Positions 1-15,717 of a DNA stretch of 23,686 nt are shown one piece after another (within the stretch, counting starts at the first letter, position 1; each line of letters starts with the position of its first letter). The notes beneath the pieces are model-generated. The model ran no database searches and was not told the origin of the DNA. It saw nothing but the letters and a program-made list of their open reading frames with translations. The DNA lies in IMG/VR virus record IMGVR_UViG_3300046534_000593, positions 1 to 23,686 of that record. One strand, 5' to 3'. Both the position numbers and the translations under genes were made by a program. This DNA is from a virus.

Positions 1-458
1 CCGTTGGGCCAACGTGGGGTTGCTGTGAGGGCTACAATCCATGTTCCTTGCGCCTGATAGTGCCTGACAATTTTAAGCATCTGAGCGCCACCAAAATGCC
101 CCTCATCAACAAACAGGATCTTCAGCTTCGGAGCGCTGTCCATCCTCCGCGCTAAGGTGTCGCTCATGATCATATGCACCTGCGCAAACGGGCTTGGACG
201 CCTGCCAGCCGCAACAAAACCGTGATCAATCCCAAACGCGTCAAGAGTCTTTGATGTCTGCTCAAGGAGTTTTTTGCGCGGGACCATAAACCCCACGGAG
301 TTACTCTTCGCAACGGCTGACTGGATCATGTGCAGGGCCAATCGGGTTTTACCGAATCCCGTTGCCGCCTGCACAATCACGGATTTGTTCCGACGCATTG
401 CCGCCCGGGTTTGTTCGACTAGGGCGGATTGATCGGGGTAGAGGCTAACTAGTGTCAT
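1..458 (-). CDS. SF2 DNA/RNA helicase, N-terminal part (cut by window edge)
   Basis: Likely an ATP-dependent superfamily 2 helicase of the phage replication module; only the first 152 codons are in the window. Visible motifs: Walker A/motif I ATGFGKT at residues 32-38, motif II DEGH at 118-121 (instead of the usual DEAH or DECH), and motif III TATP at 145-148. The conserved PDQ near residues 8-10 resembles the Q-motif region of UvsW/RecG-like and DEAD-type phage helicases. The ATG overlaps the stop of the methyltransferase gene by an ATGA, and an AGAGGGG lies about 9 nt upstream, so the start is well supported. It is the last visible gene of the leftward replication operon. The substrate cannot be told from this fragment. 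Confidence 0.85.
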   Translation of the reverse strand, partial: MTLVSLYPDQSALVEQTRAAMRRNKSVIVQAATGFGKTRLALHMIQSAVAKSNSVGFMVPRKKLLEQTSKTLDAFGIDHGFVAAGRRPSPFAQVHMIMSDTLARRMDSAPKLKILFVDEGHFGGAQMLKIVRHYQAQGTWIVALTATPRWPN

Positions 459-1171
459 AAGTCAAACCCCTCTTGCGTGGCAGGTTTTGGCGGTGCCACA
501 AATAAATCAGGCTGGTCATATGCCGCCTGCACACGCTTGCAAGCTATCTCGAAATAATCAGGATCAAGTTCAATGCCGATTCCTTTGCGCCCTAGTTTGG
601 CACAGGCAACAAGGGTTGTTCCGCTGCCCATGAAGGGGTCTAGGATTGTTTCGGCGTTGGGTAGGAACCCAAGGCACCACTGCATTACGCCTAATGGTTT
701 TTGCGTCGGGTGCTGCCTAAATGTTGGCGTTTTAACTTTGTCCATTTCTCCTTTTCTAATAAACCCATTCCAAGTCCAAACTATACGGCGCGTTGCTATC
801 TTCATATTGGTCCAAGCTAATTCACAATCCGCGAAATCGGTTGACCCGTTTTGCTTATCCCAAACAAGCCAACAAGAAGTTGGCGGCAAATCATAATAAT
901 TGCCGCCGAAAATAATTGAATTCTTTGCCATAGAAACCGCTATATTGATGGCTTCGTCTGCGGTTGATGTGTCCCATTGCTTGTGGGCGTATAAATCAGA
1001 TTTTGCCAACTTTCGGCGACTGGCAGACTTTCCGCCACTTTCCCCAATCCCATAAGGCGGGTCCGTCACAACTGCGTCCACCTTCCCAAGCGCGGGCATC
1101 ACCTCAAGGCAGTCACCAAGATACAAATCGCAGTCACCAATTTTAACGTGCTTTTTCCATGGGTCGGTCAT
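455..1171 (-). CDS. Beta-class DNA methyltransferase (N6-adenine or N4-cytosine)
   Basis: Transfers a methyl group from S-adenosylmethionine to an exocyclic amino group in DNA. In 238 residues the catalytic motif DPPY (37-40) comes before the SAM-binding motif DPFMGSGTT (178-186), the order that defines the beta class. HPTQKP near 154 is also typical of these enzymes. No recognition domain beyond the core and no restriction partner are visible, so it is probably an orphan methyltransferase protecting phage DNA from host restriction or marking replicated DNA. GGAGGA sits 6 nt before the ATG, and the start overlaps the upstream primase stop by ATGA. The target sequence and the choice between adenine and cytosine cannot be read from sequence alone. 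Confidence 0.93.
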   Translation of the reverse strand: MTDPWKKHVKIGDCDLYLGDCLEVMPALGKVDAVVTDPPYGIGESGGKSASRRKLAKSDLYAHKQWDTSTADEAINIAVSMAKNSIIFGGNYYDLPPTSCWLVWDKQNGSTDFADCELAWTNMKIATRRIVWTWNGFIRKGEMDKVKTPTFRQHPTQKPLGVMQWCLGFLPNAETILDPFMGSGTTLVACAKLGRKGIGIELDPDYFEIACKRVQAAYDQPDLFVAPPKPATQEGFDL

Positions 1172-3819
1172 CTAAAATCCTCCGGCGCATAATCACCGAA
1201 CGGCAATTCCTCCTCGTCGTGCTCCGCTGTGTCACGGCCAAGCACATCGTTGACAGGGATTGCAATCGCTTTGCTAAACAATCCCGCCATAAAATAGATT
1301 GTTTTGTTGCCAAGATTGTGCGCTGACGGATAATCAGCTAGAGTTCTGAACCACGGTGTATAGGGAGTATCGGCAAGCAATTTCTTGAGCTGTGGCGCTT
1401 GGTTCGCTATGTACAACTCATTGTCTTTGACGCGTAAACCGTACTGCCTGAGTGCCTTGTCGGCTTCCTCTTGGTGCGGGTCTTTCAGTTTGCTGGCCTT
1501 GCTGACAAGATCACCAACAGCCGCCTCGCGTGTCATTCCAGCGTGATCATAACGCACGCGCGCTGTCATGATATAGGTCAACAGCCTTGAAGGGTCGCTT
1601 TCTTCACATGCAGCCGTGTGCCAGTCCCAATCCTGCCCGCTGATCCATGCCTTTGCGTCTTCCATGCTGACTTCTTTAGTTGTCGTCAACATGTATGCAC
1701 CGGCCAACATCGGCCCCATCTGATCACCAGAACGCTTGTTCCCAAAAACGTCAGTTGCAGCACGGCTAAAAACCGCAATGTTTTTAAGCAGCGTCGGCAG
1801 GTTCGCAATTGTCCTGGCAAGCATGGCTTTTGAGTATTCCGGCGTTAGTGTTTCGTAAATGTTGTTCATCAATAATTCGAAACGGTCGCTGCGATCTGGT
1901 CGTTCGTCGCGCATCAATTCAAGCATTGAGAACCGTCCAAGGTCTTGAGTGTTCTCAACCCTAGCAATAATTGAAGCAAAGCAAAAACAGCTATTTATGT
2001 TGTAATCCTTGTAGGCGTTTACGATCACCCCGCCCGATGATGCCAAGCGAACAAGCAAAACCATGTCCTCAATACTTTGCTGTTGACGCTTGGTGTCCGC
2101 TTCCATCTCGTCAAGCACAACGCATCTTCCGCTAGTGCTAAGTTTTTTGCGTATTCCTGCTTCAGTCGATTTTTGATCTGCATTAATGGAAACCTTGCCA
2201 AGTAACGGCCTAATAATCTGCTGAATAACTGTAGATTTTCCGCTCTGCGTTGCACCAGTAACCCAGATATGCGGCCTCCAATTTATAGCAGAACCAATCG
2301 GAGCAACCACTAGCCAGCCAGCCAAAAGGTAAGCAAACTGCGACTTTTTCCACGTCACGGATTTGCATATATTCAAGAGCTTCGCCGCTTCCGCGTTAGA
2401 TAACGGATCACACTTTATGTCGTAAAGATTCGGCCCGCTCTCATAGACATATTCCCCCTTGAACTCTGCTGGGTGCTTTGAAGTTTTGTCCATTTTCACG
2501 ATGGAAGTTCCGCAGTTAACAATCGGTTCCCCGTTGTCAATCCATGCGCCAATGCCTCGCACACTTTCCGGCTGGAATATGCCAAGCAAATGACAGGCGT
2601 TCATCAGATCAGAGCAAGCAAACTCGGCGACCTTGTTCGTTGCCGTTTTTCCGTCGGGGTTGTAGTGCTTCATCCAAAACCCATAGGGCGCAAGTTTTTG
2701 AAGGTTCGCGATCCGCTGCATGTCCGTTGCAGACATTTTCTCAATCTGACCGGTCGTTTTTGGGAAAAAATAATAAATCCCCGCATCATATCCTAGCGGC
2801 CTAATCGCCCGCATTGCGTCGTGCTGTTCTTCTGGCAGGTCTTGGACTCGCTCATAGTCGCCAGACTGCCCTTCGCAATCATCGTAACGATCCGGTAGAG
2901 CCTCAAACGCGGCCCGTACAGAGGCATCTCCACACGCTCGGGCGTAGTCATCCCAATCGGTCAGGCCTGCCTCCACAGGGGGCGCTATGACGCGACAGCC
3001 CCCGATTGCTAACGCAGACTGTTGTGCGTGGTATATGCCAGGATTGTATGGCGTGCCGTCCGGCTTTGTGTTCTCGTGGTCGTTGTCGGCTGCGATGATA
3101 AACTCGGTGTCCGGATATTTCGCCAGCAAGATTTTTGCCACTGGCTTCAGGTTGCCAGAGTCAAATGCAGCGACAACAGGCAGGCCCGTACAGCGCCGCA
3201 ATGCGCAGGCCGTGGCGTATCCCTCACAAATGAGGATGCGCGCCATTGGCTCGCCTCTGTCGGCTATCGGAAAATATGAACCGAGCTTAGTCGAGCCAAA
3301 CAAAAACCGCTTCCCCCCGTCGCCCGTAATGAACTGAAGCCCGACGATTCCAGACTTCGCATACAACGGCACAACAACGCTGCCCTGTGAAATGCGCGCC
3401 CCGTTTAGCGTGGTGCCTTTGTTGTCGAGATAATCCGTGGTGCCTGTCTTGTCGGCACCGTCCCAGATCCGCCTAGACTTATCTGCTGCAGCCTCGGCGA
3501 TCCGTTTGGTTTCGGCGTCGCGTGCTTTCTTGGCTTCAGCGGCTTTGCGTTTCCAGTCGGCCCGCTCTTCTGGCGTTGCTTTGCGTGTCGATTTGGAGTG
3601 CCAAGCGTGCATGACTCCTTGCTTAAAAGAGTGCACCCAGCCAACAGCAAACCCATCGCCTTCAATCTTAAGCTGATAACTGGCGTTCTGTGTTTTTGCT
3701 CGGTCGCCTGCCAGCCTGTAACGGTTGCGCGTGTCGTCTGCTACGATCTCGTCCGGGTTTTCCGGCCCGCAATCGTGGGCGCGCATATGGTCAATAAATG
3801 CGGCTATCTGGTCAGTCAT
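1168..3819 (-). CDS. Phage primase-helicase with TOPRIM and P-loop ATPase domains
   Basis: An 883-residue replication protein expected to prime and unwind DNA at the fork. The N-terminal 75 residues resemble those of TOPRIM-type phage/plasmid primases, followed by a charged, Ala/Lys-rich stretch (about 85-125). The TOPRIM domain shows the catalytic Glu in LICEGYATA (Glu199) and the acidic pair in AADND (Asp245, Asp247). The C-terminal ATPase has Walker A GATQSGKST (522-530) and Walker B VVLDEME (Asp570-Glu571). I chose the ATG at 3819 over an in-frame ATG at 3858 because GGTGGAG lies 8 nt upstream of it and it gives a 4-nt ATGA overlap with the preceding zinc-ribbon gene. The domain order is clear; the unwinding activity is inferred. 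Confidence 0.9.
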   Translation of the reverse strand: MTDQIAAFIDHMRAHDCGPENPDEIVADDTRNRYRLAGDRAKTQNASYQLKIEGDGFAVGWVHSFKQGVMHAWHSKSTRKATPEERADWKRKAAEAKKARDAETKRIAEAAADKSRRIWDGADKTGTTDYLDNKGTTLNGARISQGSVVVPLYAKSGIVGLQFITGDGGKRFLFGSTKLGSYFPIADRGEPMARILICEGYATACALRRCTGLPVVAAFDSGNLKPVAKILLAKYPDTEFIIAADNDHENTKPDGTPYNPGIYHAQQSALAIGGCRVIAPPVEAGLTDWDDYARACGDASVRAAFEALPDRYDDCEGQSGDYERVQDLPEEQHDAMRAIRPLGYDAGIYYFFPKTTGQIEKMSATDMQRIANLQKLAPYGFWMKHYNPDGKTATNKVAEFACSDLMNACHLLGIFQPESVRGIGAWIDNGEPIVNCGTSIVKMDKTSKHPAEFKGEYVYESGPNLYDIKCDPLSNAEAAKLLNICKSVTWKKSQFAYLLAGWLVVAPIGSAINWRPHIWVTGATQSGKSTVIQQIIRPLLGKVSINADQKSTEAGIRKKLSTSGRCVVLDEMEADTKRQQQSIEDMVLLVRLASSGGVIVNAYKDYNINSCFCFASIIARVENTQDLGRFSMLELMRDERPDRSDRFELLMNNIYETLTPEYSKAMLARTIANLPTLLKNIAVFSRAATDVFGNKRSGDQMGPMLAGAYMLTTTKEVSMEDAKAWISGQDWDWHTAACEESDPSRLLTYIMTARVRYDHAGMTREAAVGDLVSKASKLKDPHQEEADKALRQYGLRVKDNELYIANQAPQLKKLLADTPYTPWFRTLADYPSAHNLGNKTIYFMAGLFSKAIAIPVNDVLGRDTAEHDEEELPFGDYAPEDFR

Positions 3820-4001
3820 GTGTCCAGCTCCACCAATTGGCTGCCGCAATGTGGGCAAAGCTCTGGAATACCTGGCGCTCCGATAACTTCATCGCAATCG
3901 GCGCAATACATATCATCGCAGTGCAGTGCGTCATAGTAATCATCAAGCGCGTCGAGGTGCCTGTTGATTGCGCAGGCGTTCCCGTCTGTTGAGTGTGTCA
4001 T
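3816..4001 (-). CDS. Small zinc-ribbon-like protein
   Basis: A 61-residue acidic protein and the first gene of the leftward operon. Two CxxC knuckles (CADC near 35-38 and CPHC near 50-53) are spaced as in a zinc ribbon, so it probably binds one zinc ion. Such small proteins often sit beside phage primases and could act as a detached zinc-binding accessory domain, but that is inference. Its ATG follows the leader CAACAAGGGGAAATGAG, which resembles the leaders of several small genes on the other strand. Its stop overlaps the primase start by ATGA, so the two are likely translationally coupled. Confidence 0.75.
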   Translation of the reverse strand: MTHSTDGNACAINRHLDALDDYYDALHCDDMYCADCDEVIGAPGIPELCPHCGSQLVELDT

Positions 4002-4106
4002 CTCATTTCCCCTTGTTGGTTTCCCGTTTGCAGCGCCTGTTCATGTTGAGCCGCTCTGTTTTTTTAGCCTCGGAAAAACACGTTTGCAAGCGAAAAAACG
4101 GCCTCA

Positions 4107-4379
4107 GTTATGGGTTTCGGTTATAAAGTTATGCCGCGTAGTGAATGATTTCAATGACTTAGGCATGACATAACTCATAACCCAAAATAAAAGAGGGGCG
4201 TACTCATAGCACATGATGCATAACACGGGGTCACAAGAGGAGAGACGATCTATACGACCCCCTCTTTATTATATTATTAGTTATAAAGAAGTAAGTAAGT
4301 AAGTAAGGGCCTGATTTCGTTCAGAAATTTTGATAACCAAAAGCATAACTGGCCCGGTTATCCTCAGTTATCCGGTTAT
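4107..4379. repeat. Iteron-like array of 12 GTTAT/ATAAC pentamers
   Basis: GTTAT occurs at 4107, 4120, 4128, 4280, 4357, 4367 and 4375, and its complement ATAAC at 4170, 4177, 4220, 4333 and 4345: twelve copies in 273 bp, where about one would be expected by chance at equal base composition. Several pair up as GGTTAT, a short gap, then AGTTATG or AGTTATCC (for example 4119-4133, 4356-4373, and inverted at 4169-4182 and 4332-4350). This suggests a dimer-binding unit in both orientations. Confidence 0.7.
4291..4306 (+). repeat. Tetranucleotide repeat (GTAA)4
   Basis: Four perfect copies of GTAA follow the AT-rich stretch in the divergent control region. Lying outside any gene, it could change promoter or origin spacing by slippage, or be incidental. 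Confidence 0.6.
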
Positions 4380-4394
4380 GAACCGATTTAGGCG

Positions 4395-4423
4395 TTGACC
4401 TCACCTCCAATTATTAGTAGATA
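4395..4423 (+). promoter_or_regulatory. Candidate promoter of the rightward accessory operon
   Basis: TTGACC (4395-4400) is followed after 17 nt by TAGATA (4418-4423), 31 nt upstream of the first accessory gene. The -35 box is strong and the -10 box weak, which is common in alphaproteobacteria. Three GTTAT copies end only 16 nt upstream of the -35 box, so the promoter may be controlled by whatever binds the array. Confidence 0.45.
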
Positions 4424-4453
4424 TAGGTCATCAAGGGCAAAGAGGACGCCAAC

Positions 4454-4684
4454 ATGAAGATCGAAAAAAACATACCAATGCCGAGACCAAGAAACCCCCG
4501 CTCGATTGCTAGGTCATACGATTGGCCGGACATGCAGGTGGATGACAGCGTGTTTTTTGACAATGAGCCAAAAGGGTCTCAGTCAAATCCTTCCGTTGCT
4601 GCCAAATGCTGGGGCGCAAATCATGGCGCTGAGTTTTCATCCCGCAAAGAAGGCAACGGCGTTCGCATCTGGCGGGTAGCTTGA
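4454..4684 (+). CDS. Small phage protein, possibly DUF7303-like
   Basis: A 76-residue protein, first in the accessory operon, preceded by AGAGGA 8-9 nt before the ATG. Its pattern (KIEKNIPMP, then DMQVDDSVFF, a small-residue middle, then VRIWRV at the end) resembles a family of small phage proteins I remember as DUF7303, whose function is not known to me. There is no membrane segment or catalytic motif. Placement next to the replication control region suggests early expression. The family name is from memory and should be treated as tentative. Confidence 0.65.
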   Translation: MKIEKNIPMPRPRNPRSIARSYDWPDMQVDDSVFFDNEPKGSQSNPSVAAKCWGANHGAEFSSRKEGNGVRIWRVA

Positions 4685-4720
4685 TCTAACGCGCAACCAA
4701 CAACACAGAGGGAACACACC

Positions 4721-4933
4721 ATGACACAGATCAGCATCAAAACGAAGTCTTACCATCGTAACAAAAGTTACAACGCGATTGCCGACGCGCTGCTTGATGA
4801 GGGCTACGGGTACACAACTCAAACCGGAACATTTGAGATCGACGTTGACGGCGTAACGCTTACAACAAACGCGCCTCGAAATTTCGTTGAGCGCATCGAC
4901 TTCACACGTAGCGCGGTGACAATCCGTGGGTAA
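4721..4933 (+). CDS. Hypothetical small protein
   Basis: A 70-residue protein I do not recognise. A good ribosome site (GAGGGA) precedes the ATG. The N-terminus is basic (KTKSYHRNKSY), followed by a predicted helix (NAIADALLDEG) and a beta-rich second half (TGTFEIDVDGVTLTT, then VTIRG), suggesting a small alpha/beta fold. Its stop overlaps the next gene's GTG start by 8 nt, so it belongs to the accessory operon. No function can be assigned. Confidence 0.6.
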   Translation: MTQISIKTKSYHRNKSYNAIADALLDEGYGYTTQTGTFEIDVDGVTLTTNAPRNFVERIDFTRSAVTIRG

Positions 4934-5060
4934 GCGTGTGGCATGGGTGGTCATTGGCCTAGTCATAGGGCTGATCTCTGGCACCATCGTTGACAAAGCA
5001 ATCGCCAACGCGGCACACAGCGCCGCAAACCAACACCAGCAACAGGGTGACAAGCCATGA
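4926..5060 (+). CDS. Tiny single-pass membrane protein
   Basis: A 44-residue ORF starting with GTG, which overlaps the previous stop by 8 nt; its own stop overlaps the next ATG by ATGA. This tight packing is the main evidence that it is real. After a basic start (GKR), residues 5-21 (VAWVVIGLVIGLISGTI) form one hydrophobic helix, followed by a polar Ala/His/Gln-rich tail (SAANQHQQQGDKP). It would sit in the inner membrane with its N-terminus probably inside. A role in superinfection exclusion or as a spanin/holin accessory is possible but unsupported. A GTG 12 nt further in is an alternative start. Confidence 0.55.
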   Translation: MGKRVAWVVIGLVIGLISGTIVDKAIANAAHSAANQHQQQGDKP

Positions 5061-5467
5061 ACGAACTGCATGAAATAATCACCAATGACGAAATCTTTCG
5101 AGTGCATGGACATGCCGACTTTGGTGACATGTTGCCAAGAGAGGTCGTCAATAATGGGGTTGTAAAATGTGCATTTGGCTTTTCTTGCGGGGCAACTCAG
5201 CTTTACATTCTTAAAGAACACGGCCTTGTGACAAAACCAAGTGATTATCTTTGCCCTGCTCGCTTAACGGAAAAAGGCAAGCGGTACGGTCGATCAATCT
5301 ATTTGCCTAAACGGCTCGCCATGACTGACGACCACACCCGCAAGATCAAGCTGGACACGCTGCGAGAGGTGCAGAAGGTGCTGGCGTTCGCTATGTCGGA
5401 CACGTCAAACTTGGCACGCGCAACAGCAGCCAATGCAATCAGCAAAATGATGGAGGAACTGAAATGA
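5057..5467 (+). CDS. Hypothetical protein with possible winged-helix N-terminal half
   Basis: A 136-residue protein joined by ATGA overlaps to the genes on both sides. Residues 20-85 (a Cys-containing helix, then LYILKEHGLV, then LTEKGKRYGRSIYLPK) read like a small winged-helix DNA-binding domain, with the LTEKGK turn typical of such folds. From Met89 (MTDDHTRKIKLDTLREVQ) the rest is one or two helices and looks like a separate small protein. This may be a fusion of two accessory genes, or the inner Met may be used as a second start. I do not recognise a family. Confidence 0.55.
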   Translation: MNELHEIITNDEIFRVHGHADFGDMLPREVVNNGVVKCAFGFSCGATQLYILKEHGLVTKPSDYLCPARLTEKGKRYGRSIYLPKRLAMTDDHTRKIKLDTLREVQKVLAFAMSDTSNLARATAANAISKMMEELK

Positions 5468-5640
5468 CTGAGCAAAAAACAATGGAAATAATCAATTGGA
5501 TCATATTTCTATCAATGCCGATCCTGCTGATATGGGCAATCAACGCATTAGTCCCGGAAGCGGAAATTGCGCTGACTGTTGAAAATTGGTGTGCTTTATT
5601 TATTGTGATCGTCTGCATACGGGAGGCATCTAACCCATGA
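5464..5640 (+). CDS. Small two-helix membrane protein
   Basis: A 58-residue ORF linked to both neighbours by ATGA overlaps (5464-5467 and 5637-5640). Two hydrophobic stretches are visible: residues 8-28 (starting EIINWIIFL and ending INALV) and 42-54 (WCALFIVIVCI), separated by an acidic loop (PEAEIALTVE). Size and topology would fit a holin-like or exclusion protein, but no endolysin gene is nearby, so this is only a possibility. The coding call rests on the overlaps and clean membrane pattern. Confidence 0.55.
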   Translation: MTEQKTMEIINWIIFLSMPILLIWAINALVPEAEIALTVENWCALFIVIVCIREASNP

Positions 5641-5846
5641 CTGACGCGACCACATCCAGAATGCAGGCAATGCGGCACCGGCATTCAGTCGGATCTGGCA
5701 CCATGCGCCAGGTCATCGCAGGGCTAGGCGATGATGAAATGGATTGGCTATGGGAATCTGCATCAAAGGCCGGGCTGAATGTTGCAGAGTGGGCCGCGCA
5801 AATAATTTGCGACGCTTATGATGAGGAAAAGGGAGACACGCCATGA
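5637..5846 (+). CDS. Hypothetical small protein, possibly ribbon-helix-helix-like
   Basis: A 69-residue protein connected by ATGA overlaps to its neighbours. The C-terminal 40 residues (GDDEMDWLWESASKAG, then NVAEWAAQII and DAYDEEKG) suggest two amphipathic helices, as in small CopG/Arc-like proteins that use an aligned helix pair for dimerisation. The N-terminus is basic (RMQAMRHRH). DNA binding is therefore plausible but not shown. Confidence 0.55.
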   Translation: MTDATTSRMQAMRHRHSVGSGTMRQVIAGLGDDEMDWLWESASKAGLNVAEWAAQIICDAYDEEKGDTP

Positions 5847-6217
5847 CGACCGCACGGGATAATATCTCGCAGATAATTGACGAAATGGTAAGATATGACG
5901 GGTTCATGGGGGCGTGGGATGCACATGACGCCGCCGACGAAATCCTTGCCGCGCTCCCTGACATGATCGCGCCGCTGATTTGGGACAAGCACCCAGACCA
6001 GCACGAGTGGTACAATGTGACACACATGGACATTGACGGGATAGAATACGGTTATACAATCGCAGGGGTCAGGTCAAAGTGGGCCGTTTATCTTAGGTTC
6101 GGGAATAAGCGCGTTGGAGGGTTGCATCGTGTTCCCCAAGAGGCGTTTGACTGGGCCAACACCCACCACCGAGCAGCGATCATGGCATCGTTCCAGACAC
6201 CAACAATCACCCCTTGA
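5843..6217 (+). CDS. Accessory protein, paralogue of the gene at 7196
   Basis: A 124-residue protein whose start overlaps the previous stop by ATGA. It shares two blocks with the 92-residue protein at 7196-7474: LAALPDMIAPLIWD (here) against LAALPSMIEPLVWD, and ANTHHRAAIMASFQTP against ANTHHIAAITAAFQTP. I know this arrangement (an ALPxMIxPLxW start and an ANxHHRAAI end) from many small alphaproteobacterial phage proteins of unknown role. The middle is variable and beta-rich with aromatic residues. No catalytic motif is visible. It closes the tight part of the accessory operon. Confidence 0.7.
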   Translation: MTTARDNISQIIDEMVRYDGFMGAWDAHDAADEILAALPDMIAPLIWDKHPDQHEWYNVTHMDIDGIEYGYTIAGVRSKWAVYLRFGNKRVGGLHRVPQEAFDWANTHHRAAIMASFQTPTITP

Positions 6218-6664
6218 CGCGGCTTGGCAGTTCGTCCATGGTGTAGAGGTTGCTTGTGTTTTGTTCCTTTCATGAGTTTCCTTTTGTTGTTGGTAGTGGC
6301 CCGCGCTTTCCCCTCCCTTGCGCGGGCCACGACAACGCCGCTTTTTTGTAGTGTGATATAACAAGTTGCTGCGAGTGCACTTCGTAGCGAGTTAGGCGCA
6401 AATCCTTTCTGTCACACTTCATGAGCGCGGCGGCGTGGAAAGCAGACACGCGCGTTGTGGCCTTACTCAGTGTTGCAGGTGGAATAGGTTTTCGGGCGGG
6501 CATAGGATTCAACGCCGAGCTGATATGTTACCCGCGATTAAATTGGCGCTCCGTAAGTTTCCCAAGTCGGCTTGGAGGCAGCCCATCGCAAAGAGCCCTA
6601 CCACGGCATGAGAGTTTGAGCAGGATTAGCGACCTGCCCGCGTTCATTTTAATCAGGGCGATCA
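6218..6664. other. 447-bp gap without a convincing gene; contains structured DNA
   Basis: Between the two paralogue-bearing segments there is no ORF with both a ribosome site and coding character on either strand. It contains an 11-bp perfect hairpin (6296-6330) followed by a T6 run, and a 7-bp inverted repeat AGTGTGA/TCACACT at 6350 and 6412. On the minus strand a CAACAACAAAAGGAAA sequence precedes an ATG at 6273, echoing the leaders of other small genes. It may be a decayed gene, a regulatory RNA, or a recombination scar. Confidence 0.4.
6296..6348 (+). terminator. Strong hairpin with downstream T-run, likely terminator or structured RNA
   Basis: GTGGCCCGCGC (6296-6306) and GCGCGGGCCAC (6320-6330) form a perfect 11-bp stem around a 13-nt pyrimidine loop. 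A T6 run begins 11 nt after the stem (6342-6347), further than usual for an intrinsic terminator. On the opposite strand the loop is purine-rich (AGGGAGGGG). It could end the accessory operon transcript, though it may equally be a non-coding RNA element. Confidence 0.5.
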
Positions 6665-7171
6665 ATGACAAGCAAATCACAAGCGCGACGCAATAAACGC
6701 CAGCACACCAAGCCCCAAGAATGGCCCGCTGAGCGCGATGCTGTAGCAATCCCCACCCAACCCACATCACGACCAACAGATCAGCGTCTAGCGCGCGGAC
6801 ATTGGGCCTCAGGCGATACCAAACCCGGCAGCGCATACGTTGATCTTGCCTGTGACATGATCGGGCGTCTTTTGGTTGAGGGCAAAATATCACAACAGCA
6901 GGCACAGGCCGCGCGGTCGTTTTCTGAAGCTCAAGGCGCATACAGATCAGAAATAGGCATATCGGAAAGCAAGTCATGCCTCGCTGAGTCGTCCTGTGGG
7001 TTTGATGCCAGCGACGGCAACCCTGAAATCTACAAGCGTTACAACAAAATGACGGACAAACTCGGATATGTAAGATCCGCGACGCTCAGGAACGAATGCA
7101 ACAAAATGGCCCGCGAAAATCCGCGCAGTCTTGACGCTCTGCGCAATGCGCTTGACTGCTTGGCAGGGTAA
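6665..7171 (+). CDS. Basic phage protein, candidate late-gene regulator
   Basis: A 168-residue protein with an AGGGCG ribosome site 6-7 nt before the ATG; an in-frame stop 15 nt upstream fixes the start. The first 50 residues are basic and Pro/Gln-rich (SKSQARRNKRQ). Residues about 55-165 form a helical core: LACDMIGRLLVEGKISQQQ, then AARSFSEAQGAYRSE, then a Cys/Ser-rich linker and IYKRYNKMTDKLG. I recall similar 'GKI..xQ..A..F' cores in alphaproteobacterial phage regulators, but cannot name the family. It lies just before the late promoter/terminator, where lambda-like phages place an antiterminator (Q). That is a positional inference only. Confidence 0.65.
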   Translation: MTSKSQARRNKRQHTKPQEWPAERDAVAIPTQPTSRPTDQRLARGHWASGDTKPGSAYVDLACDMIGRLLVEGKISQQQAQAARSFSEAQGAYRSEIGISESKSCLAESSCGFDASDGNPEIYKRYNKMTDKLGYVRSATLRNECNKMARENPRSLDALRNALDCLAG

Positions 7172-7195
7172 ACCAACACAACAAAGGGGAAAGAT

Positions 7196-7474
7196 ATGAC
7201 GAAAGAAGAATTTCTTGCCGCACTTCCAAGCATGATTGAGCCGCTGGTGTGGGACGGGTTTCGCAGCGGACCCTATAAAATCTACGTTTATGATCAGGGG
7301 GCTGATCTTTGGTTTTGCACCAAGGCATTTAATTGCGAGGCAGGTTACAAGCGACTGCTTGGGGCATACGTGACGCGGGTTAGCATTGATGACCTCAAGC
7401 AAGAAGCCAACACCCACCACATTGCCGCGATCACAGCGGCGTTCCAAACGCCGTTCACCCCAACTCTTGACTAA
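7196..7474 (+). CDS. Accessory protein, paralogue of the gene at 5843
   Basis: A 92-residue protein preceded by the leader ACAACAAAGGGGAAAGAT, shared with other small genes in the window. It keeps both blocks of its longer paralogue: residues 5-19 (FLAALPSMIEPLVWD) and the ANTHH block near 71, followed by AAITAAFQTP. The middle is shorter and divergent, with several aromatic residues and two Cys. Its 3' end overlaps the -35 box of the candidate late promoter. Function is unknown. Confidence 0.7.
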   Translation: MTKEEFLAALPSMIEPLVWDGFRSGPYKIYVYDQGADLWFCTKAFNCEAGYKRLLGAYVTRVSIDDLKQEANTHHIAAITAAFQTPFTPTLD

Positions 7475-7494
7475 CGCGCAAAAACTGCTATTTA
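7467..7494 (+). promoter_or_regulatory. Candidate late promoter (copy A)
   Basis: TTGACT (7467-7472), a 16-nt spacer containing GCGCAAAAA, then TATTTA (7489-7494). A very similar element lies at 14674-14702 (TTGCAC, GCGCAAAAA, TATTTC), and similarity continues about 19 nt past the -10 box, ending in AATTG. Two independent copies, each before structural genes, support a real shared promoter. Transcription would begin near 7501. Confidence 0.55.
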
Positions 7495-7509
7495 TGAGTG
7501 CGAGGAATT

Positions 7510-7539
7510 GCGTTTAGTCGAAAGGCTGGGCGCTTTTTT
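7510..7539 (+). terminator. Intrinsic terminator just downstream of late promoter A
   Basis: The left arm 7510-7519 (GCGTTTAGTC) pairs with 7524-7533 (GGCTGGGCGC) over 10 bp, including four G-U pairs, around a GAAA tetraloop, and six T follow (7534-7539). Only about 10 nt separate it from the predicted transcription start, so it would release a very short RNA unless transcription is antiterminated. Confidence 0.65.
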
Positions 7540-7581
7540 GTTGGGCGGGATGCTCACACCACATGAAAAGGCGGGAAGCCT

Positions 7582-7614
7582 ATGCGATCTATACATTCAA
7601 GTTTTTCAAAATGA
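7582..7614 (+). CDS. Ten-codon leader ORF coupled to small terminase gene
   Basis: ATG at 7582 follows GCGGGAAGCCT and encodes MRSIHSSFSK. Its TGA (7612-7614) overlaps the ATG (7611) of the terminase small subunit as ATGA. The terminase ATG has no ribosome site of its own (preceded by TTTTTCAAA), so translation of this mini-ORF probably delivers ribosomes to it. It could be chance, but the exact overlap is telling. Confidence 0.4.
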   Translation: MRSIHSSFSK

Positions 7615-7913
7615 CTTTGCACGGCGGTAAGAGAACAGGCGCAGGCAGAAAGCCCGGGGCAACATCACTTGCCAAGCGTGATCTGGCGTCTATGGCCAAG
7701 GAGCACGTTGACCTAGCCTTGTCCGTATTGGCGGAAATTGCAGCAGCAGGGCAAAGCGAACCTGCGAGGGTATCAGCGGCCAACGCGCTCCTAGATCGAG
7801 CATACGGCAAGCCAATCCAAGGCACTGTGCAGATCCCAGCGGAGAAAGCGCCGCAAATGTTCGAGGGGTGGGATATTGAGCGAGCGGAATCTGATACGCC
7901 TGACGCTGACTGA
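7611..7913 (+). CDS. terS: Terminase small subunit
   Basis: Recognises phage DNA for packaging and regulates the large subunit. In 100 residues the N-terminal basic GGKRTGAGRKPG (5-16) is typical of one family of small terminases, followed by helices (SLAKRDLASMAKEHVDLALSVLAEIAA and RVSAANALLDRAYGKP) that form the oligomerising core. I chose ATG 7611 rather than ATG 7563 because GGKRTGAGRKPG normally lies at the extreme N-terminus, and because of the ATGA overlap with the leader ORF. The upstream start would add 16 residues and overlap the leader in another frame. The gene overlaps the large subunit by 38 nt. Confidence 0.85.
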   Translation: MTLHGGKRTGAGRKPGATSLAKRDLASMAKEHVDLALSVLAEIAAAGQSEPARVSAANALLDRAYGKPIQGTVQIPAEKAPQMFEGWDIERAESDTPDAD

Positions 7914-9135
7914 GCCGCAAGAACGGTTTCTAATGTCTAAAGCAAAGCATCCGGCGTTCGTTGCTGGTTTCGGCGCGGGCAAGTCCGAGATAATGGCCTG
8001 CTCTGCGCTTGGAGACGCGGCCCACAGCGCCACGGCATTGATCGGGCTGTACGCGCCAACCTACGACCTTGTGCGGCTTATCACGGCCCCGCGCATTTGC
8101 GCCAAACTTGAGGAACAGGGCATTCCGCACAGGTGGAATAAGTCCGATAATGTGATCTATACATCATGGCCGCGCTTCGGTGATTTTTTACTACGCACCA
8201 TGGACAACCCTGAGCGCATTGTAGGATATGAGACCTACCGCTCGCATGTTGACGAGCTTGACACGCTCAAGACTGAGGCTGCGCGCAAGGCATGGAATCA
8301 GATCATTGCACGCAACCGGCAGCGACCTGAAGGCATCAAGCGGCCATTCAATCGCGTTTCAGCATATACGACGCCCGAGGGTTTTGGATTCGTCTATGAG
8401 CGCTGGGCAAAGAACAAAACAGAAGGCTATGAGTTTTTCCAAGCCCCGACGTATAGCAACCCATTTCTGCCTGATGATTATGTTGACAACCTGCGGGCTA
8501 GTTATCCGGCGCAGTTAATTGATGCCTATATTGAAGGGCAGTTCGTTAACCTCACATCGGGCACGGTCTACAATTCATTTAACCGAGAGACCAATCGCAG
8601 CCCCGAAACCCTGCAACCAGGTGAGCCGATCCGGCTCGGCATGGACTTCAACGTAGGGAATATGGCCGCATGTGCGTTTGTGCTGCGTGAGAACGACTGG
8701 CACTGTGTTGATGAGATTAAGGGCGGCATTGATACACCTTCGATGATCACGACCATGGCAGAGCGATACGAAGGCCACAGCGTTATTATTTACCCTGACG
8801 CAAGCGGCAACAATAAGAGCAGCAAGGGCGCGTCATTGTCTGACATCTCACTGCTGAGGAATGCAGGCTACACGATACGAACCAAGCCAAGCAACCCGCG
8901 CGTGAAAGACAGGGTGCAGGCGGTCAATATGGGCTTCCAGCGGGGGCGTGTGTTCGTCAACCCTGACACCTGCCCCGAGACAGCGCGGTGCCTTGAGCAG
9001 CAAGCTTATAACAAGCAGGGCGAGCCGGACAAGACAACCGGACTTGACCACCAGAATGACGCATTCGGTTATCCTATCGCGTATGAAATGCCGATCAGAA
9101 ACACCGCGAAGGTGCAAGAGCGAATCCGGTTTTAA
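7876..9135 (+). CDS. terL: Terminase large subunit
   Basis: The packaging motor ATPase and nuclease that pumps DNA into the prohead and cuts it. The 419 residues show Walker A GFGAGKS (31-37), a Walker B-like HVDELD (Asp126-Glu127), and RNase H-like nuclease acidic residues in MDFNVG (Asp257), YPDASG (Asp308) and DHQNDAF (391-395). It begins with TTG, with GAGGGG about 7 nt upstream, inside the small-subunit gene; an ATG at 7933 would remove the conserved LTEPQERFL stretch. Its length fits the compact terminases found with DUF4055 portals. Confidence 0.95.
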   Translation: MSERNLIRLTLTEPQERFLMSKAKHPAFVAGFGAGKSEIMACSALGDAAHSATALIGLYAPTYDLVRLITAPRICAKLEEQGIPHRWNKSDNVIYTSWPRFGDFLLRTMDNPERIVGYETYRSHVDELDTLKTEAARKAWNQIIARNRQRPEGIKRPFNRVSAYTTPEGFGFVYERWAKNKTEGYEFFQAPTYSNPFLPDDYVDNLRASYPAQLIDAYIEGQFVNLTSGTVYNSFNRETNRSPETLQPGEPIRLGMDFNVGNMAACAFVLRENDWHCVDEIKGGIDTPSMITTMAERYEGHSVIIYPDASGNNKSSKGASLSDISLLRNAGYTIRTKPSNPRVKDRVQAVNMGFQRGRVFVNPDTCPETARCLEQQAYNKQGEPDKTTGLDHQNDAFGYPIAYEMPIRNTAKVQERIRF

Positions 9136-9144
9136 GGAAATACC

Positions 9145-10575
9145 ATGTCAAAAACAGTCAATAAACGATCTGCGGTTATGGCTGCAATTGTCCAATCCTC
9201 GGAAAAGGGCCGCGCTCTTATGGGCGGCACCGAAGCAATGCGAAAGGCTGGGCAGAAGTACCTGCCTAAGTTTGGCGCGGAAGACGATCAAGACTACAAG
9301 GCTCGGCTGGCGTCGTCTTGGCTGTTCAACGGGATGCGCAAAACCGTTAAAGACATGACCGGGCGCGTATTCACAAAACCCATTGAGATAGCAGAAGGCC
9401 CTGACCGCCTTAAAGAATTCGCCGAAGACATCAACATGCAGGGCCAAGACCTGAGCGCGTTTGCATCTGACATATTCAAGGACGCCTTTGTGCCGGGCAT
9501 TTCTTACATTATGGTGGATGCCCCGCGACGTGAGGGCGAGACCACACGCGAGCAGGCTGCAACGCTTGGCCTGCGTCCTTACATGGCGCACCTGAAGGTT
9601 GAGGATGTGCTAGGGTTCAAAACTGAGACGTACGGCAACGTCCTAGCGCTGTCTATGCTGCGGATCATGGAGTCAGTCAAAGAAACAGACCCAGCCGATG
9701 AATTTACGCAAATCAGCGTGGATCAGGTCCGAGTGCTTACGCGCGAGGGCGGCACAGTATCGGTGCGCATCTACCGTGAGAACGACAAAAACGACTGGCT
9801 TGTGTTTGACGAATACCTGACCAATGCCGAGGAAATCACGGTTATCCCGTTTTATGCCCAGCGCACGGGTTTCTTCACCGCTGAACCTGTGCTTGAAGAC
9901 CTTGCGGACGTGAACATTGCGCATTGGCAGTCACAATCTGACCAGCGCAATATTCTGCATGTTGCCCGCGTGCCGATCTTGTTTGCATCTGGCAGGCGAC
10001 CTGATGAGCCGATTGTGATCAGTGCCTCGAACGCGGTTACTTCAGAAGATCCGGCCTCAAAGCTGGTATGGGTTGAGCACACCGGCGCGGCTATTGGCGC
10101 GGGGCGTACTGACCTCAAAGACCTGGAATATCAGATGCAGGCGCTTGGCCTTCAGTTGCTTGTAGCGAGCAATGAGACCGCAACCGGTGCTGTGCTGGAC
10201 TCTGCCAAGGAAACATCAACCCTGTCAATGATGGCCGACAACCTGAAGGACGCACTTGAACAGGCGCTTAAATGGATGGCGTTTTATGACGGGTTGCCAG
10301 AGCAGGACATCACAATCGTCGTCAACAAAGACTTCGGCATTATGCCACTGACCGCGCAAGAAGTGCAGGTCATGCAACAGGACGTTGCGCTCGGCCTGTT
10401 GTCAAAAGAGGCATATTATGAGGAACGCAAACGGCGCGGATTCTTGCGGCCTGATCTTGACACTCAAGGCGACATGGACGCAATCTCACAGCAGCCGCCT
10501 GACCTGACTGGTGAGGCGTTGGACCTGAGCGGCACGAGCGGTGTTGATAGCGCATTGGCGGCTTTGAATGGATAG
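9145..10575 (+). CDS. Portal protein, DUF4055 type
   Basis: Forms the dodecameric channel at one capsid vertex that binds terminase and the neck. The 476-residue sequence has features I know from DUF4055 portals: an N-terminal YKARLASSWLFNGMRKTV region, FVPGISYIMVD near 115-125, DVNIAHWQSQSDQRNILH near 255, and a Gln-rich helix with ETATGAVLDSAKE near 355. TAAGGAAA precedes the ATG. It follows the large terminase by 9 nt and overlaps the collagen-like gene by 8 nt at its end, in one late transcript. Confidence 0.9.
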   Translation: MSKTVNKRSAVMAAIVQSSEKGRALMGGTEAMRKAGQKYLPKFGAEDDQDYKARLASSWLFNGMRKTVKDMTGRVFTKPIEIAEGPDRLKEFAEDINMQGQDLSAFASDIFKDAFVPGISYIMVDAPRREGETTREQAATLGLRPYMAHLKVEDVLGFKTETYGNVLALSMLRIMESVKETDPADEFTQISVDQVRVLTREGGTVSVRIYRENDKNDWLVFDEYLTNAEEITVIPFYAQRTGFFTAEPVLEDLADVNIAHWQSQSDQRNILHVARVPILFASGRRPDEPIVISASNAVTSEDPASKLVWVEHTGAAIGAGRTDLKDLEYQMQALGLQLLVASNETATGAVLDSAKETSTLSMMADNLKDALEQALKWMAFYDGLPEQDITIVVNKDFGIMPLTAQEVQVMQQDVALGLLSKEAYYEERKRRGFLRPDLDTQGDMDAISQQPPDLTGEALDLSGTSGVDSALAALNG

Positions 10576-11383
10576 GGATCTAGGAGAGTTTGTCGGCAAG
10601 GGTTTTGCTGTGCTGCGTGATCGTCTGAAGGCCGTTGAGTCACGTAAGGCGATCAACGGCATTGACGGGCAAGACGGCAAGGACGGAAGTGCAGGGCCGC
10701 AAGGTTCGGCAGGCCCGCAAGGTGACGTAGGGCCTGAAGGTAAGACAGGCACGCAAGGCGATGTTGGCCCAAAGGGCGATCAAGGTAACAGCGTAAAAGG
10801 AGATAAAGGCGATGAAGGCGAATCCATACGGGGCGAAAAAGGGGACCAAGGGAACCAAGGCCAAGCCGGTGAAGCGGGGCAAGTAGGGCCAAAGGGCGCA
10901 AGGGGTGAACCTGGCGCGAAAGGCAACGACGGGCGAACAGTAACAGGCCCACAAGGTGACAACGGAGAGGGTGTCCAGGCGGCGTCAATCAACGAACGCG
11001 GGCACCTGATCATCACGCTTGACGATGGCCGCAAGATCGACGCAGGCAGGGTCAAGGGCCGAGACGGGCAGTCATATCAAGGCATGATCGCAGGCGGACC
11101 AAGCACGCCCAGACCGTCGGGCATTGCAACTCTGGACTTTGGCGCGTCGGCTAAGACATCAACCGTTGTGGTCACTGGTGTTGATGCGATCACCGCGACC
11201 TCGGTTGTGCTGGTCAAAATGCGCATTGAAGACACCGACGATCACACTGCCGAGGATCTGTTGATTGACCCAATACGAGTTGAGGCGTTTGCAATTGTGG
11301 CGGGCGTTGGCTTTACGATATACGGCGCGATGGAAAACGCGCCTGCAAATGGAAAATATAACGTCCAGTGGGCGCTAGGTTAG
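10568..11383 (+). CDS. Collagen-like fibre protein
   Basis: A 271-residue structural protein. Residues 31-135 are Gly-X-Y repeats (about 30 triplets) interrupted three times by five-residue units: GNSVK (73-77), GESIR (84-88) and GRTVT (122-126). Such repeats form a collagen-like trimeric rod, common in phage fibres. The N-terminal helix (FVGKGFAVLRDRLKAVESR) may be the attachment or trimer-starting part. Residues about 185-271 (TLDFGAS onwards, ending YNVQWALG) look like a beta-sandwich tip found at the end of phage fibres. Because it lies between portal and head genes, a head or neck fibre is as likely as a tail fibre. Confidence 0.85.
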   Translation: MDRDLGEFVGKGFAVLRDRLKAVESRKAINGIDGQDGKDGSAGPQGSAGPQGDVGPEGKTGTQGDVGPKGDQGNSVKGDKGDEGESIRGEKGDQGNQGQAGEAGQVGPKGARGEPGAKGNDGRTVTGPQGDNGEGVQAASINERGHLIITLDDGRKIDAGRVKGRDGQSYQGMIAGGPSTPRPSGIATLDFGASAKTSTVVVTGVDAITATSVVLVKMRIEDTDDHTAEDLLIDPIRVEAFAIVAGVGFTIYGAMENAPANGKYNVQWALG

Positions 11384-11391
11384 GAAATCAA

Positions 11392-12273
11392 ATGGCAGTC
11401 GAAATTAAATCAGGCGCAGGCACGGACCTTGCAACAGTTGAGCCAAACTCAAAGTCAATAAGGGTTACAAACTTTAGCACCGGTGGCATTGAGGGTTTTC
11501 AATCTCTGCCGATTACTGTGCCGATCACTGATGTTTCGGCACTAAATGACGACCTAATCGCGGCTTTGGACGTGTCGCAGTACAAGTTTATCAGCCTTCA
11601 GCTTGTCGGCACTTGGGCGGCTACTGTGTCGTTTCAGGGGTCAAACGACGGCGGCACATTCTACCCTATTGTGACATCCAACCCAAGCGGGGGGCAGGCA
11701 ATTGGCGAATCGTCAACGACTGAAAATCGGCTTGTAAAGGTTCCGACGATCTACAAATTTGTGCGCATTAGGGTGACGGCTTACACCTCGGGCATTGTTG
11801 AGGGCGTGGCGTTTGGCCATCGTGATGAAAACTCGTCGGGTCTTATTGCTGCGATTGGGCCTGTGACGCTAAACCCTGAGACAACCAAGAAAATCGGCAA
11901 CGTGGGCATCGCGCAAAGCGGCAGCACCGTGACCTACCAGAAATTCATCTCTGACACGACGACGAACGCGACCGCAGTGTCAAGCGTGCCTGCAAATATC
12001 TCAATCCTGCACATGGAAAACAGCGGTGACGGCGTGCGCTACGTTAAGTTCTACAACAAGGCCAGCGCGCCCGTGGTTGGAACTGACGTACCGCTGATCA
12101 CAATTGGTATTCCGGCAGTGTCAAGCTCAAGTTTTACGCTGCCTGCGCTGGTCGGCATTGACTTTTCCATAGGTATTTCCTTCGCTATCACCTTGGGCGC
12201 GGCTGACAGTGACACCACCCCGCTCAGTGTTGCGGCCAACGTCACCGGGCTTATTGCTTACTCCGCGTTGTGA
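11392..12273 (+). CDS. Beta-rich virion structural protein
   Basis: A 293-residue protein. I start it at the ATG at 11392 (MAVEIKSG), preceded by AGGAAATCAA, rather than an in-frame upstream ATG. Residues about 60-145 contain the pattern LVGTWAATVSFQGSNDGGTFYP followed by YKFVRIRVTAYTSGIVEG, which I know from beta-sandwich domains of phage fibre and head-decoration proteins. The C-terminal third (from ISILHMENSGDG through KFYNKASAP) resembles another such domain. It follows the collagen-like gene directly, so the two may form one appendage. No enzyme motif is seen. Confidence 0.7.
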   Translation: MAVEIKSGAGTDLATVEPNSKSIRVTNFSTGGIEGFQSLPITVPITDVSALNDDLIAALDVSQYKFISLQLVGTWAATVSFQGSNDGGTFYPIVTSNPSGGQAIGESSTTENRLVKVPTIYKFVRIRVTAYTSGIVEGVAFGHRDENSSGLIAAIGPVTLNPETTKKIGNVGIAQSGSTVTYQKFISDTTTNATAVSSVPANISILHMENSGDGVRYVKFYNKASAPVVGTDVPLITIGIPAVSSSSFTLPALVGIDFSIGISFAITLGAADSDTTPLSVAANVTGLIAYSAL

Positions 12274-14969: not shown

Positions 14970-15012
14970 GCGCTGGCGGGATGCCTGCGCCTTAACAGCG
15001 GGAAGCTGACCT

Positions 15013-15717
15013 ATGAAAATCGAAGTAACCGACGCCACCACATTGCCCACATGGCTTCAAGGCCACGTGTCTGAAGGCCACCTTGATCTAGGCGCACTTG
15101 CTGCACCAGAGGACGTGAGCGGGCTTAAAACAGCCCTCTCCAAAGAGCGCGGCAATGCTGCGGCTTATAGCAAATACGGCACGCCTGACGAGATTGAGGC
15201 GCGCATTGCTGACCTGACAGACAAAGCCAAGGGCAGCGGCAAAGGCAGCGAAGACGCACAGGCCAAGCTTGACGCAATGAAGGCTGACTACGAGGGCAAG
15301 CTGACCGGCGCAAACGACCGCATGACAAAAATGGTGCAGCGTGGCGCGGCGTCCGACCTCAAGGCAGAACTGGCAAAAGCTGGATTCATTGCGGAATCCA
15401 TTGACGACATCGCATCAAGCGCGATGGGTCGTCTCAAATTTACAGACGACGGCACCGCTCAGGTCATGACATCTGACGGAAAGCCAATGATTGGCAGCGG
15501 TGCCGATCACGGAGCGACCCTAGCCGATCTGGCGAAGGAACTTGCAGCATCCAAATCCTACGCGGTTCGGGATGCTGGCAAGGGCGGCGGCGGGAAGCCT
15601 GCCGGATCAGCGGGCGGGACGCCTGACAAACCCACAGTCACTTGGTCGCAATTCGAGGCAATGTCTCAATCCGACCGAATGACATTTTCAAAATCAGGCG
15701 GCGCAGTCAAAAACTAG
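15013..15717 (+). CDS. Capsid scaffold protein
   Basis: Guides coat assembly and leaves or is lost before maturation. The 234-residue protein is helical and charged, with predicted coiled-coil character around residues 40-125 (starting ALSKERGNAAAYSKYG, through EARIADLTDKAK and AKLDAMKADYEGKL), then a flexible Gly/Ala region (GKGGGGKPAGSAGGTPDKP, about 188-206) and a short helical tail that would bind the coat. Position immediately upstream of the coat gene is the strongest evidence. GCGGGAAGC precedes the ATG. No maturation protease gene is seen nearby, consistent with a P22-like capsid. Confidence 0.8.
   Translation: MKIEVTDATTLPTWLQGHVSEGHLDLGALAAPEDVSGLKTALSKERGNAAAYSKYGTPDEIEARIADLTDKAKGSGKGSEDAQAKLDAMKADYEGKLTGANDRMTKMVQRGAASDLKAELAKAGFIAESIDDIASSAMGRLKFTDDGTAQVMTSDGKPMIGSGADHGATLADLAKELAASKSYAVRDAGKGGGGKPAGSAGGTPDKPTVTWSQFEAMSQSDRMTFSKSGGAVKN

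Follow-up and report, generated by a model that had tools for sequence, protein, structure and literature searches.

A candidate promoter-proximal antitermination switch ahead of the packaging genes of a marine bacterial virus

The analyzed stretch of DNA, in the following called the window, comprises the 23,686 nucleotides of the IMG/VR virus record IMGVR_UViG_3300046534_000593. Ahead of its packaging genes lie a late promoter (P) and, only a few bases further on, an intrinsic terminator (T), which are preceded by the gene for a 168-residue protein and a small ORF (Table 1). This small ORF and the ORF 5843-6217 both belong to PHROG 23314 (function unknown) and share 79% identical DNA at 6155-6201.

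Table 1. Positions of the promoter, the terminator and the neighboring genes and elements in the window.
Feature	Position	Strand	Basis or remark
Gene of the 168-aa protein, candidate antiterminator	6665-7171	+	homologs directly upstream of P in relatives; AlphaFold; predicted function
92-aa ORF between candidate gene and P	7196-7474	+	stop codon overlaps -35 (CTTGACTAA); paralog of ORF 5843-6217
Late promoter P	7466-7494	+	conserved in 19 distinct loci; held-out promoter-model test
Conserved part of -35/-10 spacer, candidate antiterminator-binding element	7475-7487	+	conservation, including L125
Initially transcribed element GAATTGCGTTTAG, candidate -10-like pause element	7505-7517	+	conservation; putative role
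Intrinsic terminator T (10-bp stem, GAAA loop, T6)	7510-7539	+	sequence reading, scan, folding
First small hairpin, GGGAT loop	7542-7556	+	one G-T pair
Second small hairpin, AGGC-GGGAA-GCCT	7569-7581	+	GGGA 9 bases before an ATG
Micro-ORF, 10 codons (MRSIHSSFSK)	7582-7614	+	TGA overlaps terS ATG at 7611 (ATGA)
Terminase small subunit gene terS, likely	7611-7913 (ORF listed from 7563)	+	PHROG 15261, function unknown; role by position
Terminase large subunit gene terL	7876-9135	+	PHROG terminase large subunit

The -35 element CTTGAC (7466-7471) and the -10 element CTATTT (7488-7493) of P were read directly from the sequence, and transcription is expected to start at 7500-7501, seven bases past the latter. 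A scan with the E. coli consensus found no promoter on the + strand within 6060-8546 and missed P, because its -10 region (CTATTT/TATTTA) lacks the final T. The alphaproteobacterial promoter form is CTTGAC-N17-CTATAT, which the P of the window is taken to resemble. It is by this likeness and by the conservation in relatives that P is recognized as a putative promoter.

T is composed of the hairpin GCGTTTAGTC-GAAA-GGCTGGGCGC (7510-7533) and the stretch TTTTTT (7534-7539), so that direct reading and folding confirm the 10-bp hairpin with GAAA loop and T6 which the original prediction had placed before the terminase genes. Of the 10 pairs of the stem five are G-C and four G-T, and with a G+C-containing hairpin followed by a run of T it has the form of an intrinsic terminator. 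In a simple scan of positions 1-12000 it ranks first among 16 terminator-like sites, a count which by itself is not above chance, since shuffled sequences average 15.6 sites. The RNA of 7505-7540 folds with -14.8 kcal/mol (z -4.35), a stability reached by none of 200 shuffles, and the RNA of 7501-7539 with -15.5 kcal/mol (z -3.09; 2 of 200 shuffles equally stable). Counted from a start at 7500, the stem spans +11 to +34, and the default terminated RNA is therefore predicted to be about 40 nt long, which agrees with the length proposed originally. Rfam gave no match at the gathering cut-off in the window and a single chance match near the site (E 7.2), and no tRNA was found in the window by ARAGORN.

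Downstream of T, the overlap of the micro-ORF stop with the terS start suggests translational coupling, and similar micro-ORFs ahead of terS were seen by eye in relatives. Tandem small hairpins with a GGGAN loop occur at 7542-7581, 14978-15004 and 15592-15620 of the window, in most cases directly ahead of a start codon. The window contains two strict pairs, compared to 0.01 expected, and the third (7547) needs one G-T pair. In related loci the letters of the stems vary while the pairing holds (GGC/GCC, AGC/GCT, GAC/GTC, CGC/GCG), and these hairpins are possibly a translation-control site for the head genes; for a CsrA-like role their register presumably misfits the usual CsrA loop. The late region also contains an ORF with collagen-like G-X-Y repeats (10568-11383).

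Relatives of the locus were collected by searches with the TerL protein (80 viral loci) and with TerS (29), and pattern scans added nine more. The promoter pattern scan covered 118 of 120 loci and the window, leaving out L110 and L111 as copies of the window. With duplicates counted once, it yielded 18 distinct promoter sequences, and L004, in which the spacer is changed, is the nineteenth. In nine of the 19 distinct loci (the window, L002, L009, L010, L019, L021, L031, L040 and L117) T follows directly after P with unchanged spacing; five of these nine (L009, L010, L019, L021, L117) are nearly identical to one another. TTGACTA, the AAA of the spacer, TGCTATTT and AATTGCGT are common to all nine without exception, and the last is also retained in L024, L033, L037 and L119, which are without a terminator of the window type. 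The initially transcribed AATT(G/A) element, which differs from a consensus -10, is conserved across many loci. Across the nine loci the pairing of the T stem is retained in 93.3% of cells, compared to 33-46% for slid partners. Compensatory changes do not add to this, because none of the pairs is changed in both partners and shuffled sequences perform equally well. Hairpins were present in all seven loci of the window type that were folded, the weakest being that of L009 with -6.8 kcal/mol and one broken pair. The claim of a promoter just ahead of the terminator is thus supported by its conservation together with a terminator ahead of the packaging operon, even though the E. coli consensus scan passes over it.

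In each of the 19 distinct promoter loci a homolog of the 168-residue protein is encoded upstream of P (tblastn). For L035, at a contig edge, and L019 only the last 33 residues of it are present; L020, the twin of L019, is complete. The alignment shows a basic N-terminus and the motif RPTxERxARGxW. AlphaFold models, with mean pLDDT values of 67 and 70, are helical in the C-terminal half and of low confidence in the first ~33 residues, and the basic N-terminus is predicted to be disordered. It presumably resembles the arginine-rich segment of lambda N, a likeness which is not used as evidence. In the L010-type loci, L037, L040, L126 and L128 the -35 element overlaps or abuts the stop codon of the upstream homolog gene; in the control for this closeness, any TTGWC lay within 12 nt of the stop in 111 of 1438 cases. 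No INPHARED phage record matched the protein, and for the P-T site all matches were short and attributable to chance (E about 6). A viral-contig search with the protein gave none, and tblastn on the collected loci gave many.

Genome searches with the profile or the protein led to matches in 2 of 394, 4 of 390, 2 of 385 and 3 of 390 genomes, altogether in five different genomes: G334 (L125), G152 (L126), G531 (L128), G1026 (L132) and G180 (L130). L130 (E 2e-4), which has an internal stop and by eye lies in a housekeeping region, was dropped as a chance match. L125, L126 and L128, found by the protein alone, carry a matching promoter within 190 bases past the gene and then a terminator, and in L125 and L128 a TerS-like ORF is next by eye. 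A promoter model trained on 12 phage loci only was applied to five held-out homologs, covering 450 bases past each gene. Out of 1415 control regions, two score as high as L125, seven as high as L128 and 16 as high as L126. In L003 and L022 the model found no match in the 450 bases past the homolog; by eye L022 has a promoter-like CATAGT and a hairpin, which pass no test here. L132 has no clear P-T arrangement and no matching promoter. A promoter-then-terminator rule, which was tuned on these data, flags 15 of the 22 family loci, among them L011, L016 and L034 for the stem of a tRNA, which are therefore not counted as terminators; among 1425 controls it also flags 50 if 438 bases are considered and 18 if the site must be near the stop. 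A generic rule for E. coli-type promoters fails for the family, finding P-T in two of 22 family loci compared to 23 of 1425 controls.

The same layout also occurs where the upstream protein is a different one. In L044, L039 and L135 a gene of a different family, coding for 204-217 aa, is followed by a promoter, a short interval, a hairpin with a T run and late genes. L135, in which the stop codon lies inside TTGAC, was found with the L044 protein as the one match in 198 genomes. By profile comparison no relation of the L044-type family to the 168-aa family was found, and none of DUF6456 to the A6-type proteins. L050, which equals the Brevirhabdus prophage L121 in length and match, shows the layout with a third upstream protein. 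For L039, L044, L050 and L135 the promoter was identified by visual inspection. In 12 loci the stem starts at +4 to +42 relative to the expected start, and at +4 to +19 in ten of them.

What follows P differs between the relatives. In L024, L037, L004 and L084 no terminator precedes the leader of the packaging genes. In L011, L016, L033, L034, L035 and L119 another RNA lies between P and a different strong terminator adjoining the leader; in five of these six it includes a tRNA gene, namely tRNA-Met after P in L011, L016, L034 and L035 and, at a greater distance, tRNA-Tyr in L119. Other structured RNA was found in L003, L004, L024, L033 and L084, and Rfam, applied to 12 relatives not including L003, detected only tRNA at the gathering cut-off. 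As P may be followed by a terminator, a tRNA, another RNA or nothing, entry into the late region seems to be fixed at P, with a variable content between P and the genes. The tRNAs and structured RNAs would also suit the explanation that P and T form a tiny RNA gene, or the emptied slot of a phage RNA gene, with T as the RNA end and the late genes driven otherwise. This appears unlikely, since in L024, L037, L004 and L084 the transcript would continue into the packaging genes without meeting a terminator, the chromosomal loci L125, L126, L128 and L135 have P and T without a recognizable RNA gene between them, and no further promoter was seen between T and terS.

As a separate observation, an unnamed RNA of two long hairpins is found in L003 (2110-2290), L004, L011, L016, L024, L033, L034, L084 and L119. 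The base stems are constant, the tips are wholly different between phages, and some tips hold pieces resembling the T-arm of a tRNA. A second conserved RNA-like stretch, GTGTC...GCGTTATGA...GACACAGCC, occurs in L003 (2385-2440), L034, L035, L036 and L119.

The weak hairpin of L009 and the share of G-T pairs in the stem of the window would be in line with attenuation without a dedicated phage protein, in which T either is leaky and only adjusts how strongly the late genes are transcribed, or is under the control of host factors. That the site is strictly linked to a single upstream protein family, also where the terminases downstream differ, argues against such a mechanism and leaves it rather improbable. 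That T instead terminates the upstream early genes, P being a chance match and the late genes starting elsewhere, would fit with the position of T 36 nt past the stop of ORF 7196-7474 and with the failure of the E. coli-type scan to call P, but it is the least credible explanation, as P is conserved far beyond chance and recurs beside homologous genes in other prophages.

The comparison of the loci establishes that P is conserved, that T adjoins it and that the upstream gene is conserved as well; from the sequences we infer where transcription starts, that it pauses and terminates there, and that the protein binds DNA and acts by antitermination, the last of which is well supported by comparison. 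With a probability of about 0.7, P and T form together with the upstream gene a Q-like promoter-proximal antitermination switch at the late promoter of a Rhodobacterales-type phage. By default, the polymerase would leave P and be halted by T about 40 nt later, and terS, terL and the head genes would stay off because the polymerase is stopped at T. The protein encoded at 6665-7171, or its counterpart in the relatives, would most likely bind DNA within or beside the -35/-10 spacer, of which the conserved part may be an antiterminator-binding element by analogy to QBE, ABE and ZBE, which sit in the spacer. Binding would take place while the polymerase is held just past the start, and at a pause near +20 the 5' arm of the T hairpin would still be inside the polymerase. 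The protein would then board the polymerase, which would ignore T and later terminators. The packaging genes of this marine bacterial virus are thus probably off until the protein of the upstream gene permits readthrough. The short interval is informative as to how soon an antiterminator has to board, and since promoter, terminator and candidate protein are all defined, the switch is directly testable.

By sequence, the 168-residue protein does not belong to a Q family (lambda Q, 21Q, 82Q): for 17 members, the window included, Pfam/NCBIfam gave no convincing match to a Q family or to any other, and for further homologs Pfam likewise gave no Q-family match. According to the accessible text of PMC9371919, the Q families share no significant sequence similarity among themselves. 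PHROG 15385 (function unknown) weakly matches 16 of the 17 members. Neither the protein of the window nor the 16 other members reach the cut-off of PF20057 (DUF6456), which only the intermediate L132 matches (34.2 bits, cut-off 26.3); L132 also matches the profile of the 168-aa family at 1.1e-8 and the phage-only profile at 5.4e-5, and the residues of the DUF6456 and family-profile matches overlap. A direct comparison of the two profiles fails (probability 1.1% or less), and the link to DUF6456 is for this reason a lead and not a family assignment.

In a Foldseek search against viral models 13 matches had a probability of at least 0.84, one of them named DUF6456. This DUF6456 phage protein is at rank 7 (E 0.007, TM 0.44/0.37), for a query model with a mean pLDDT of 70. 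A search of PDB structures with E up to 0.001 gave no match. The best VIA structure matches, with Z 4.5 and 3.8, are in the range that the tool calls common, and matches to sigma region 4 chimeras (Z 2.1-2.2 over residues ~92-168) were not taken as evidence. GafA homologs are annotated as DUF6456 in the accessible parts of PMC9638019 and PMC9765227, and GafZ of Caulobacter is described in those of PMC11150451 as an antiterminator homologous to the C-terminal domain of GafA. Via L132 it is suggested that the 168-residue protein is distantly related to DUF6456 (GafA/GafZ). A more far-reaching and tentative proposal, which we hold to be somewhat less probable than its opposite, is that it represents the DUF6456 antiterminators in phages, as a new Q-like family of late regulators of Rhodobacterales phages whose relatives gave rise to GafA/GafZ by domestication, and that it acts at the most compact promoter-terminator switch known. 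If the DUF6456 link is true, it points to the origin of the gene transfer agent antiterminators.

In the literature searched, which was largely without subscription papers, no description was found of a late-control system of this kind in marine alphaproteobacterial or Rhodobacterales phages, and a term search in the accessible text of the prophage survey PMC8224337 found none either. A lambda N/nut-type arrangement, with a boxA/boxB site upstream of the terminator, is not seen, as there are only ~10 nt between the start and the hairpin, and the small GGGAN hairpins lie after T and not upstream.

The locus appears to be organized like Q/pR'/tR', with an interval that is unusually short. Like lambda Q and 21Q, the candidate regulator gene is located directly upstream of the late promoter, and a terminator precedes the late genes; in lambda, a promoter-like TTGACT-17-TAAATT starts 43 bases past the Q stop. 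The late promoter and the terminator before the first late gene, which characterize a Q-type module, are recognized here by sequence and conservation. The 168-residue protein differs in having no Pfam/NCBIfam match to any Q family, and the stem of T begins at +11, whereas lambda tR' lies ~190 nt from the start. The original prediction of a lambda-like Q layout is partly supported, in that the P-T unit is conserved and a candidate gene occupies the Q position in every promoter-bearing relative, but the terminator is not universal among them.

The spacer binding element and the -10-like pause element of lambda-type Q systems, as described in the accessible part of PMC6606751, both have candidate counterparts in the window. 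The same two elements, one in the spacer and one just past the start, are shared by the Q and AlpA systems (accessible parts of PMC6606751, PMC7969949 and PMC9371919). GafZ/GafA (DUF6456) of gene transfer agents also act on an alphaproteobacterial, phage-derived late cluster, and GafZ has a helix-turn-helix of sigma-like type, its site being located between -35 and -10 (PMC11150451, accessible text). Unlike at the P-T site, terGTA is located after the first gene and not right after the start, and GafZ works with GafY and IHF.

In the AlpA system of Pseudomonas aeruginosa the promoter is likewise followed at once by a terminator. A C-terminal helix-turn-helix of AlpA binds the spacer element, and a ring assembles within the RNA exit channel (accessible text of PMC9371919). 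AlpA differs in that it controls host lysis genes, and no sequence match to it was found. At its target PA0807 the terminator begins 26 bp past the start, as given in the accessible text of PMC7969949. The short interval therefore has a precedent, and with about 11 bases that of the window is still shorter.
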